Below, piece by piece: positions 10,515-54,805 of a DNA stretch of 64,000 nt; positions within the stretch are counted from its first letter, which is position 1, and each line of letters begins with the position of its first letter. This DNA comes from a virus, in IMG/VR virus record IMGVR_UViG_3300031576_000019, positions 1-64,000 of that record. One strand, 5' to 3'. Below the pieces are notes generated by a model. It did no database searches and had not been told where the DNA came from. It was given only the letters and a program-made list of their open reading frames with translations. The position numbers and the translations under genes were made by a program.

Positions 10515-10711
10515 ATGTTAATTGTGAAATTGTTGCGGGCGAGTGGGCGACTCCTTGAAATCGCCAAGACTACAGATGAGGTTATAGTCCCCGAAATACG
10601 CATTGCGAAGTATGCGGGAGAATCAAACAGATAGATGCCCGGATTCAGGTCGCGGGCTGGTGCGTGTGTCGTGGTTGTGAAGAAATCTTTTGGTTTCTGG
10701 AGGCAGAGTGA
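10515..10711 (+). pseudogene. Zinc-ribbon-like small ORF interrupted by a frame change
   Basis: The AGAAAGGAAAC ribosome site and ATG 10515 open a 39-codon frame (MLIVKLLRASGRLLEIAK) that stops at 10634. The -1 frame takes over around 10600 and reads HCEVCGRIKQ then WCVCRGCEEIF to TGA 10711, a Cys-rich zinc-binding pattern with no start of its own. A frameshift mutation, a sequence error or programmed -1 shifting would all explain this. If none applies, the 39-aa product is the gene. Confidence 0.4.
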
Positions 10712-10815
10712 CGCACGCTAAAAACGTGCGGTAATGCGCTGACTGGTCACAAGCCCAGTTACCTATGGAACGTCCTGCAACCTACTTGGGATACGCAGGG
10801 CGCTTTTGATTCCAG

Positions 10816-18737: not shown

Positions 18738-18761
18738 TTGCTTCGCAGATAGAAATTGAAG

Positions 18762-18845
18762 GGCTGGACAGGCGCAGGGACATGGGTTCAATTCCCATCC
18801 AGCCTTGTTGGCCGTGAGATAGATGGGCTGCAGACCGTATCTATC
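18762..18845 (+). ncRNA. tRNA-minihelix-like element plus hairpin
   Basis: GGCTGG (18762) pairs with CCAGCC (18804), and between them a perfect T-arm ATGGG-TTCAATT-CCCAT stacks directly on that stem. D and anticodon arms are replaced by a 14-nt loop. A second hairpin GATAGAT/ATCTATC follows (18818-18845). It looks like the top half of a tRNA without the rest. Confidence 0.5.
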
Positions 18846-19770: not shown

Positions 19771-20034
19771 ATGATAGAAAATCTCCCCGGGTGTGCTGAA
19801 GCCAATCGGTTAGGCTATTCACTTCATCACTACGCTGGCAACGGTCAGTCGGCTAGTTATGTGAAGGACGGGATTTTCTTGGAGGTGTATAACGATGGCG
19901 ATACCGCGAAACTGACAGTTGCCATTGGCTTGATCAGCTTAAGCACTGGTGACTTCCAGTTTCCACATCCAAGGTTTGACATCTTTGAGAAAGTCATGAT
20001 CCGCTCGTATACAGCCATTCAGAATAGCATGTGA
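19771..20034 (+). CDS. Unknown small protein
   Basis: 87 aa, MIENLPGCAEANRLGYSLHH to RSYTAIQNSM. Starts 4 nt after the preceding stop. Its stop codon lies inside the operator of the tmRNA promoter. Not recognised. Confidence 0.5.
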   Translation: MIENLPGCAEANRLGYSLHHYAGNGQSASYVKDGIFLEVYNDGDTAKLTVAIGLISLSTGDFQFPHPRFDIFEKVMIRSYTAIQNSM

Positions 20035-20060
20035 ATAATCTTTCACTCCTATGGTACAAT
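20031..20060 (+). promoter_or_regulatory. Operator and extended -10 promoter of the tmRNA
   Basis: GTGAATAATCTTTCAC (20031-20046), five bases, then TGGTACAAT (-10 TACAAT at 20055-20060). Transcription would begin near 20067, 16 nt before the mature tmRNA 5' end. Confidence 0.75.
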
Positions 20061-20082
20061 CTCGCCAGTACCTTTACAACTT

Positions 20083-20394
20083 GGGCGTGAATTTGGTCTC
20101 GACAGGATAGGCGGGAAGTGAATTGCAGGCGGAGAAGCGCAGACCTCCTAAAATCGGCGCAACCTTTCAAGTGCTGAAGCACCCATTGCGGTGGATTCCC
20201 TGTTTGGGTTCCGCCCCGGCCAACTGGCCGAAAGCCTGTTCGCAGGCGTCTCCGTGACCGCGTAAGTGTCCGGTGGTGGAAGTCGGTCATCCCCGAAACC
20301 GACACAGATGAAGACGCTGACGGCGTACCGTCTAAGCCTGTAGGAATTTGCTTCGCAAGTGTCTTGGACGCCGGATCGTTACCGGCCACGTCCA
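20083..20394 (+). ncRNA. ssrA: Transfer-messenger RNA (tmRNA), phage-encoded
   Basis: 312 nt. The 5' GGGCGTG pairs fully with 3' CACGTCC (20387-20393, one G-U) and A is the discriminator. The 5' part has the tmRNA signature TCTCGACAGG. The T-arm is GCCGG-ATCGTTA-CCGGC; helix 2 is ACAGG/CCTGT beside CTAAGCCTGTAG. A tag frame ending TAA 20263-20265 reads AESLFAGVSVTA, with a proteolysis-type end; its first codon is uncertain. CCA is not encoded. A mini-hairpin copy caps one helix. It would rescue stalled ribosomes. Confidence 0.85.
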
Positions 20395-20531
20395 CAGTTA
20401 TCCCGGCCAGCGGTGCTTTCTCGTTAGACGTTAGCCACTGTCCTCCGTCCGGGATAGAAAGAGTAGTTGGGGTTATGGCGGGCCGCGTAGGTTTTGTCCA
20501 GCCGCCGCCCAGCCCGCCCCCATTATTACTA

Positions 20532-20599
20532 GACAAGTATCGGGTGGAATGGAAATAGACCTCCGTAATCGAGCACATCTGGCTGGCCCGATACTTGTC
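20532..20599. ncRNA. Long-arm hairpin after the tmRNA
   Basis: GACAAGTATCGGG and CCCGATACTTGTC are a perfect 13-bp inverted repeat around a 42-nt loop. No gene between; the stretch 20395-20620 otherwise shows only scattered short stems. Confidence 0.65.
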
Positions 20600-20752: not shown

Positions 20753-21046
20753 ATGAAAATCGGCGTGACGATTGATGAAGTCCGACAGCAAGGCACGCAG
20801 ACCGCTTATGTGCCCTCCCGTTTGCACGGTCATAACCTTGACTTGCAACACCCCGATGTGGAGTTTGGCTTTGTTACCAGTGTCAAGTCCATCGGCGCTT
20901 TCTGTCGCTTCTGGTCCAAATTTGTTCCTGACGAACTACGGACCACAGCAAACAGTGAGATGGCCCCATTTCACAGTCTGGCGCTCCATGAGGGTCATTC
21001 GGAAGAGGCAGTGGCCAAACAGTTGAAGAAAATTATGGGCGGTTAG
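20753..21046 (+). CDS. Unknown protein
   Basis: 97 aa from ATG 20753, MKIGVTIDEVRQQGTQTAYV to AVAKQLKKIMGG. An upstream ATG at 20660 would translate the structured leader and is less likely. The stop codon lies inside the tRNA gene that follows, so the transcript carries both. Not recognised. Confidence 0.5.
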   Translation: MKIGVTIDEVRQQGTQTAYVPSRLHGHNLDLQHPDVEFGFVTSVKSIGAFCRFWSKFVPDELRTTANSEMAPFHSLALHEGHSEEAVAKQLKKIMGG

Positions 21047-21109
21047 TTCAGTTGGGAGAACGTCTGCGCTGCAAGCAGAATGTCGTGGGTTCGAGTCCCA
21101 CATCGTCCA
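21037..21109 (+). tRNA. tRNA-Ala, anticodon UGC
   Basis: Complete 73-nt cloverleaf: acceptor GGGCGGT/ATCGTCC (two G-U), D-arm GTTC/GAAC, anticodon arm TCTGC-GCTGCAA-GCAGA, T-arm GTGGG-TTCGAGT-CCCAC, discriminator A, CCA not encoded. Pairing puts UGC at 34-36 but leaves C, not U, at position 33, which is unusual. Confidence 0.85.
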
Positions 21110-43223: not shown

Positions 43224-43242
43224 AAAGACCGAGCCGCCCGGT

Positions 43243-53332: not shown

Positions 53333-54805
53333 TCAAGCCAAATTATCAAGAGTAAGTCTAAGCTCACCTTGCATGACATAAACAGCCGGTAGAGCCGTTC
53401 TTATAATATCAATCGCCTCTCCCAGATCCCCATCAAAAAGACCGGGCGCGCGCAGAATCTCCAGCGCCTCATCAATATCCATACTCTCAAGGGCCTCGTT
53501 GGTAATCAGATTCAAGCCCGCAATTTCAGCCCTGAGCGCCTCGGCTTTGCGCGACTTCTCTTTCACTTGGTCTTCTAAGACGACGCGCGCACCCTGGAAT
53601 ACCAGCGATTCAATAGACCTGGAAAACCCCGCAATCTCGTTATCCAGCATGGCAAGTTCTCCTTGCAGACGGGTCAGACCCTTGGCGGTTTCCGGTCCGA
53701 CGCTAAAAGAGTCGTCGGCATAGTACGCCTCCAATTCTTCGCGCGTTACACTCCTAAACATATCTTCCAGGGCCTCCACAATTTTGTGCTCATACATTGA
53801 ATTGGAGACATGAGGAATCTCCATCCCCGAATTCCGGGAGGCTACCCGGTTGAGGTAATGGGCGCACCCATAATTAGGAATACTCCGACCCCTAATCCAG
53901 CTGACTCCCCCTCGCCGCATCGGGCCACCACATAAGCCACAAAACAAAAAGTCCCGGAAAGGAGAACTCTGCCACCGGCCACGCGGGTGTTCACGCCGAC
54001 GCCGAGCAATCTCCAATTCCACCCTTAGACAAGTCTCGGCATCCCACATCTTGGGATGCCGGCCAGGAGACAGGACTCCGTTATAGACCGAGAAACCCCT
54101 ATACCAAGGGCTATTGATAATCCTCGTCACATGGCCGTATTTGAGTTGACGGCTACTTCCAGGCGGGAGCGGCAAGCGCCGCCATATTTCAATGTAGGAC
54201 ATGCCAGACAATAGATACTCGGCCAGCGTAGTAAACCACATTCGCCAGCCCTCATCAATGACATACCCCACCGTCTTTCCAGAATCATCCCGGACACTGT
54301 TGTAGCCAATCGCGCCGTTCCCGCCATGGTGCATCCCGCGTTTAGCTCGCCCCTCATGGCCCATTCGTATCCTGTCCCGGATTCGATCCAGTTCCATCTT
54401 GTTGACTGCCGCTAAAAGGTAAAATGTCCGCAGGTCAAAATTACCGGAAACCAGGATAACCTGTATGCGTGTCTGTTCAAGCATATCCCCAAATGGAACG
54501 GCGGGCCGCACTCCCCGACACAGCCGATCATCCGTCCTGGCATAGATCAACTCATACTTCTGAGCGTAGCCGTCTGCAATCAGACGCAGAAACTCCGGTC
54601 GATCAGCCCGCTCACCCCCTGGTTCTACCCAGCGCCTCCCCACTCGATAGCGCTTGTTGTCCACATACTGGTCAATAATTTCTACCCCATCCCTGATCGC
54701 ACGCTTGCGCGAGTCCTCCAGCTGAACCGGGATGGAGACTTTATCCTCCCCGCCCTGTCCCTCGCTGTCACTTATCCTGGCGTAGACAACGCCTCTCTTG
54801 CTCAT
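53333..54805 (-). CDS. Large serine recombinase (phage integrase)
   Basis: 490 aa. Catalytic domain: VVYARISDSEG with the nucleophile Ser near residue 12, then YARTDDRLCR and MELDRIRDRIRMGHEGRAK. A recombinase domain follows (GNGAIGYNSVRDDSGKTVGY), then a zinc ribbon (LFCGLCGGPMRRGG, YGCAHYLN) and a coiled coil near 375-430. This is the normal length of large serine integrases. It points to a temperate life style. Its ribosome site is the GGAGG of an SD-hairpin, 9 nt upstream. Confidence 0.9.
   Translation of the reverse strand: MSKRGVVYARISDSEGQGGEDKVSIPVQLEDSRKRAIRDGVEIIDQYVDNKRYRVGRRWVEPGGERADRPEFLRLIADGYAQKYELIYARTDDRLCRGVRPAVPFGDMLEQTRIQVILVSGNFDLRTFYLLAAVNKMELDRIRDRIRMGHEGRAKRGMHHGGNGAIGYNSVRDDSGKTVGYVIDEGWRMWFTTLAEYLLSGMSYIEIWRRLPLPPGSSRQLKYGHVTRIINSPWYRGFSVYNGVLSPGRHPKMWDAETCLRVELEIARRRREHPRGRWQSSPFRDFLFCGLCGGPMRRGGVSWIRGRSIPNYGCAHYLNRVASRNSGMEIPHVSNSMYEHKIVEALEDMFRSVTREELEAYYADDSFSVGPETAKGLTRLQGELAMLDNEIAGFSRSIESLVFQGARVVLEDQVKEKSRKAEALRAEIAGLNLITNEALESMDIDEALEILRAPGLFDGDLGEAIDIIRTALPAVYVMQGELRLTLDNLA

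Follow-up and report, generated by a model that had tools for sequence, protein, structure and literature searches.

By its sequence and covariance-model match, the plus-strand segment 20083-20397 of the phage DNA studied here is a one-piece tmRNA gene. It probably yields a working RNA of the ordinary trans-translation type, which would use the SmpB, AlaRS and EF-Tu of the host to rescue ribosomes during takeover. The window, 64,000 nucleotides in total, covers the opening 64 kb of an IMG/VR record of 90,773 bases. The final 127 bases of this record duplicate its beginning, and the genome is therefore complete, circularly closed and about 90.6 kb long. The presence of a serine integrase, an SPP1-type portal, a tail tube protein and a replication module of DnaD/DnaB-like/primase genes at 44-47 kb shows that this is a tailed phage with a temperate lifestyle. 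Three IMG/VR protein scans and tblastn of the integrase, helicase and portal yielded no near relative. DNA comparison with annotated phages also gave no sequence match, and the portal had no match in 195 genomes from the phylum of the Victivallales. The features relevant to the gene are as follows (window coordinates):

20030-20047 (+), predicted phage operator, 18-bp palindrome TGTGAATAATTATTCACA, here TGTGAATAATCTTTCACT; one of 10 window sites
20052-20060 (+), extended -10 element TGGTACAAT, at a fixed distance from the operator
20083-20397 (+), one-piece tmRNA gene (ssrA-like), by Rfam RF00023 (E 2.1e-28)
20083-20089 (+), 5' strand of the acceptor stem, GGGCGUG, pairing with CACGUCC at 20387-20393; read from the sequence
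20103-20130 (+), 5' strand of H2, CAGGAUA / GAAGUGAAUU / GCAGGC; MFE fold and Rfam alignment
20131-20160 (+), PK1-like pseudoknot, GGAG (20131-34) with CUCC (20145-48) and GCGC (20137-40) with GCGC (20157-60)
20173-20262 (+), probable tag reading frame AEAPIAVDSLFGFRPGQLAESLFAGVSVTA, 30 codons; A86 rule and resume-context profile
20263-20265 (+), tag stop codon UAA, closing the 20173 frame
20332-20343 (+), tmRNA signature CUAAGCCUGUAG (the CUAAGCxUGUAG strand), intact, on the 3' side of H2
20336-20366 (+), 3' strand of H2; MFE fold and Rfam alignment
20348-20357 (+), dispersed phage 10-mer TTGCTTCGCA, inside H2
20370-20386 (+), T-arm GCCGG-AUCGUUA-CCGGC with variant loop; RF00023 alignment
21037-21109 (+), tRNA-Ala(UGC), located 640 nt downstream of the tmRNA and likewise with a G3-U70 pair; ARAGORN and RF00005 (59 bits)
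53333-54805 (-), serine integrase, 33 kb from the tmRNA

RF00023 aligned end to end (model 1-374) with 77.6 bits, far above its cut-off of 47, so that the covariance scan proposed as a check of the original prediction clearly identifies a tmRNA. The tRNA-Ala-like false positives of this model score no higher than about 43 bits at a length of about 77 nt, whereas the match here covers 315 nt and all 374 model positions. The original prediction had assigned the tmRNA to 20031-20394, which located the gene correctly but included the promoter, as the RNA starts at 20083. The unconstrained MFE fold of -128 kcal/mol (z -3.1; none of 100 shuffles as low) recovered the acceptor, the T-arm and most of H2. 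An antisense ORF over the tmRNA (19994-20578) has codon statistics like those of a shadow frame or the antisense of a known gene, and the stretch is therefore not a protein gene.

The tRNA-like end, the 5' signature and helix 2 named in the original prediction are all present. The 7-bp acceptor carries the pair G3-U70 (G20085, U20391), whose absence would have spoken against alanylation, and the discriminator A73 corresponds to A20394, so that the alanine identity determinants are in place. The 5' signature reads GGUCUCGAC and the D-region UUUGGUCUCGACAGG. An anticodon arm is absent, and the long H2 joins the TLD to the MLD in three paired blocks including G-U pairs: 20103-09/20360-66 (7 bp), 20115-24/20345-54 (10 bp, two G-U) and 20125-30/20336-41 (6 bp). 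All pairs of the acceptor (7/7) and the T-stem (5/5) are intact. The encoded 3' end is ACAG without CCA; maturation would be carried out by host RNase P, 3' nucleases and CCA-adding enzyme, and the mature RNA is expected to comprise 20083-20394 plus C20395, with CCA completed enzymatically. The PK1-like stems occur in the right order and in register with the Rfam PK1 region and represent a candidate read from the sequence. The PK2-PK4 part of the RF00023 alignment matched poorly and with low posterior; PK2-PK4 are dispensable, and in E. coli they can be replaced (PMC2481249).

As also predicted, one helix carries the dispersed mini-hairpin: the phage contains TTGCTTCGCA in 10 exact copies, without exception on the plus strand (12971, 15824, 15895, 18309, 18738, 20348, 22433, 31126, 36621 and 45023), and the one at 20348 lies in H2. 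The element often occurs as AGTTGCTTCGCAGA, and several copies are located close to gene ends.

Two features had not been registered originally, the aberrant T-loop and the failure of ARAGORN to call the gene. In the T-loop AUCGUUA, A54/U58 replace the usual U54/A58; a U54-A58 T-loop is typical of tmRNA, although not strictly defining. ARAGORN reported only the tRNA-Ala at 21037. An exact search of IMG/VR for T-arms with the AUCGUUA loop returned one other place (L021), compared to at least 120 matches for the canonical T-arm. Among 84,980 bacterial and archaeal species genomes, the variant T-arm was found in one stretch (L020). In annotated phages, the five variant-T-arm matches that were opened (Xanthomonas Rb1, two Bongovirus mycobacteriophages, one Mesorhizobium phage and one Pseudomonas phage) all had other T-loops. 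Thus, the AUCGUUA variant is rare and recurrent, and in this survey it was confined to two viruses and TLD-only RNAs.

The second viral example, a 316-nt tmRNA from a 110-kb virus (L021; IMG/VR contig 3300000228_000004, 11536-11851, minus strand), has the identical T-loop and was likewise missed by ARAGORN. As the two missed tmRNAs share AUCGUUA, the loop appears to be the cause of the miss. Surveys based on ARAGORN, on which current phage counts rest, hence miss at least this T-loop class. The 5' end of the L021 tmRNA is nearly identical to that of the phage RNA (GGGCGUGAA..UGGU.UCGACAGGA; shared part GGGCGUGAA..UGGUNUCGACAGGA). It differs in an unrelated, AT-rich MLD, a 13-residue tag and an encoded CCA, and the L021 stretch contained no protein related to this phage.

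The reading frame of a tmRNA is determined by A86, which precedes the resume codon by four nucleotides, and C or G can take the place of U85 (PMC2481249). In the phage RNA the resume context reads ...UUUCAAGU-GCU, with C20168 at the U85 position, a change reported to be harmless in E. coli (PMC2481249), A20169 as the equivalent of A86, and GCU at 20173-75. The resume GCU falls on RNA position 91, and the viral one-piece tmRNAs that ARAGORN called in 137 viral loci mostly resume at 85-99. In a resume-context profile built from 30 viral one-piece tmRNA contexts and run over the whole RNA, 20173 ranked second; the first rank, 20310, is located beyond the tag region and would begin with Glu. At 20173, the -1 frame stops at the second codon and the +1 frame begins with Leu. 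The tag very probably consists of 30 encoded residues starting from GCU 20173. The tag originally proposed, AESLFAGVSVTA, has the correct frame, yet covers only the last 12 codons, and its start at 20227 ranked 48th with a strongly negative score.

Together with the charged alanine the tag would comprise 31 residues, which is long, yet within the range of 8-33 seen in viruses, where such tags are common; the comparison set consisted of 94 ARAGORN tmRNA calls in 137 viral loci picked by T-arm or 5'-end pattern. As about one third of such frames are open for 30 codons by chance (estimated from base composition), the tag length is no evidence in itself. The tag ends in -SVTA and not in the usual -AA, with which 87 of the 94 sampled viral tags end. 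In the MFE fold, a short hairpin, GUGC-UGAA-GCAC, includes the resume codon and could hinder resumption. Two other viral one-piece tmRNAs of about 297 nt in IMG/VR (L061 and L087) have related, unusual 23-residue tags, GTLITESALRNKLETFVRISVAA and GTFITESALRNKIAEFVRVPVAA, with Gly as first residue.

The gene is preceded by the same operator-promoter type as early phage genes, in agreement with the original prediction. The operator palindrome, allowing up to three mismatches, occurs at 10 sites in the window versus 0.01 expected, with further sites downstream. Operator and GGTANNAT combine at constant spacing into five composites in the window, compared with none expected from 100 shuffles. The composite before the tmRNA gene, at 20030-20060, has no mismatch, and a sister composite at 43242, which has one additional base, is located ahead of the replication module. 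The tmRNA begins 23 nt downstream of its promoter and shares operator and promoter geometry with other phage promoters. A consensus sigma-70 scan did not find a promoter, since a TTGACA box is lacking in this promoter of the extended -10 type; the -35 region is covered by the repeated operator. We infer that a repressor acts at the predicted operator. It would keep the tmRNA off or at low levels in the lysogen, and upon infection or induction the tmRNA would be expressed alongside the early and replication genes.

In IMG/VR, the operator 18-mer was found in one 39-kb contig; the stretch of it that was compared has no protein in common with the phage. Operators also immediately precede ribosome-binding sites of genes on the minus strand (6931, 8119, 57631, 61797 and 85330 in record coordinates), an arrangement that resembles the stoperators of cluster A mycobacteriophages. 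The highly repeated palindrome CCTCCAA[C/G]TTGGAGG, which is unrelated to the operator and represents a second dispersed element, occurs at 25 sites in the phage (e.g., 13373, 15649, 19383, 21970, 31106 and 47107); these are often intergenic and often supply GGAGG before a start codon.

To our knowledge, phage tmRNAs have no settled function. SmpB was not found among the phage genes, and any trans-translation must therefore rely on host SmpB. Following charging by host AlaRS, the RNA would be brought by host SmpB and EF-Tu.GTP to ribosomes stalled on broken mRNA. Alanine and the 30-residue tag would then be added and the ribosome freed at UAA, so that ribosomes may keep cycling during takeover. 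The product would be marked with a tag ending in -VTA, which host proteases may treat differently from the host tag. The swapped U54-A58, the hairpin at the resume codon and the -TA tag end count against a working tmRNA.

The gene may instead be a captured host ssrA in decay that is now non-functional, which we consider unlikely. Decay would be in line with the variant T-loop together with the ARAGORN failure, the missing CCA, the tag end other than AA, and the poorly matched PK2-PK4 region with its low Rfam posterior. However, acceptor, T-stem and H2 blocks are without a broken pair, the resume context and the stop codon are intact, and a phage promoter whose composite motif is perfect is dedicated to the gene. 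In addition, the AUCGUUA T-loop also occurs in the unrelated virus L021, in a tmRNA that is otherwise sound.

We would give somewhat less weight still to a reading in which the tmRNAs of mobile elements and the TLD-only RNAs form a class with a rewired T-loop AUCGUUA, the phage tmRNA being a specifically altered, host-independent rescue RNA missed by standard annotation. To the same doubtful degree, the altered loop in such a class might remove a T-arm motif that is used by T54/A58 modification enzymes, by T-loop introns or integrases, or by RNA-targeting host defences.

Phage-borne tmRNAs are already known, being present in 402 of 18,146 phages, about 2% (PMC9004378), and the present gene is a divergent addition rather than a new kind. 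Mycobacteriophages Bxz1, Wildcat and Bongo and Bacillus phage G (PMC4131195) likewise are tailed phages with a complete one-piece tmRNA, tRNA genes nearby and presumed use of host SmpB. In contrast, the phage described here has the T-loop AUCGUUA, a 30-codon tag, a temperate lifestyle and operator control, and its tmRNA is mainly distinguished by the long tag and the unusual T-loop. The methylophage Melnitz also has its tmRNA directly after an early promoter, and early expression has been proposed there; however, that tmRNA consists of two pieces and is associated with a glutamine riboswitch, whereas the present one is one-piece and linked to an operator (PMC9004378).

Mycobacteriophage DS6A carries a TLD-only tmRNA (PMC4131195), and following the role proposed for it, the phage RNA could act as a decoy that mainly titrates host SmpB or AlaRS or blocks host trans-translation. 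Apart from this precedent, such a role would fit the finding that TLD-only RNA inhibits experimentally (PMC11915505) and that the phage is without its own SmpB. The TLD is common to both phage RNAs, but H2, the PK1-like element and the full tag frame with its stop codon, and thus the mRNA-like part missing in DS6A, are retained here, and we regard a decoy as quite improbable. A slim chance remains with the view that the gene exists for the sake of its tag and that this tag would divert truncated phage proteins from host ClpXP and AA-directed proteolysis. The long tag ending in -SVTA is in keeping with this view, as is the tag of the similar L021 tmRNA, ENNINYTGMVQVA (frame by the A86 rule), which also does not end in AA. 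However, -AA is kept in most sampled viral tags, and a hydrophobic/Ala C-terminal end may still be degraded. Hardly any credence can be given to the notion that this is no tmRNA gene at all and represents a chance or tRNA-like covariance match or an attachment-site remnant: Rfam/Infernal tmRNA searches are prone to false positives (PMC4131195) and ARAGORN was negative, but the score extends over the whole model and is accompanied by G3-U70, H2, PK1-like stems and the resume context, the RNA is complete and not a 3' fragment, and the distant integrase is of the serine type. As an operator-tied tmRNA of a temperate phage with a 30-residue non-AA tag, the gene provides a clean test case for ribosome rescue, degradation-tag swap or block of the host system.

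Further RNA elements were observed in the phage. Around the tmRNA, no Rfam match to GOLLD or ROOL, the large ornate phage RNAs, was obtained, and folding z-scores were unremarkable with the exception of single hairpins. Between the tmRNA and the tRNA-Ala, a perfect 13-bp inverted repeat closes a 68-nt element (20532-20599, plus strand; fold z -3.7), which may be a processing or termination structure. Upstream, at 18761-18805 (+), a 45-nt tRNA/tmRNA-like minihelix consists of acceptor and T-arm without D or anticodon arm (GGGCUGG .. GACAGG .. GGAC AUGGG UUCAAUU CCCAU CCAGCCU); it matched RF00023 weakly (16.8 bits, E 7e-4), and its single-strand MFE does not favour the T-arm. The early region on the plus strand also contains a Type-P5 twister ribozyme (10702-10758; Rfam RF02684, 49.5 bits).

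The T-loop pattern and a set of mini-tmRNAs from uncultured Victivallales bins are more novel leads than the phage tmRNA itself. These TLD-only RNAs are 81 nt long, have an encoded CCA and were located at the following sites:

L020, 4393-4473, mini-tmRNA
L020, 5098-5178, mini-tmRNA
G001, C33:9764-9844, mini-tmRNA
G001, C252:2030-2110, mini-tmRNA
G001, C184:5793-5873, mini-tmRNA
G032, C102:1984-2064, mini-tmRNA

Five of them occur in one genome (G001) beside a normal 355-nt ssrA with the tag ANEEYALAA, and one in a second genome; the pattern was matched in 2 of 120 members of the order. The T-loop AUCGUUA is present in three of the five. The mini-tmRNA on C184 is flanked by a kinase-like gene and by VWA and PP2C genes, a set that resembles the TerY-P triad.
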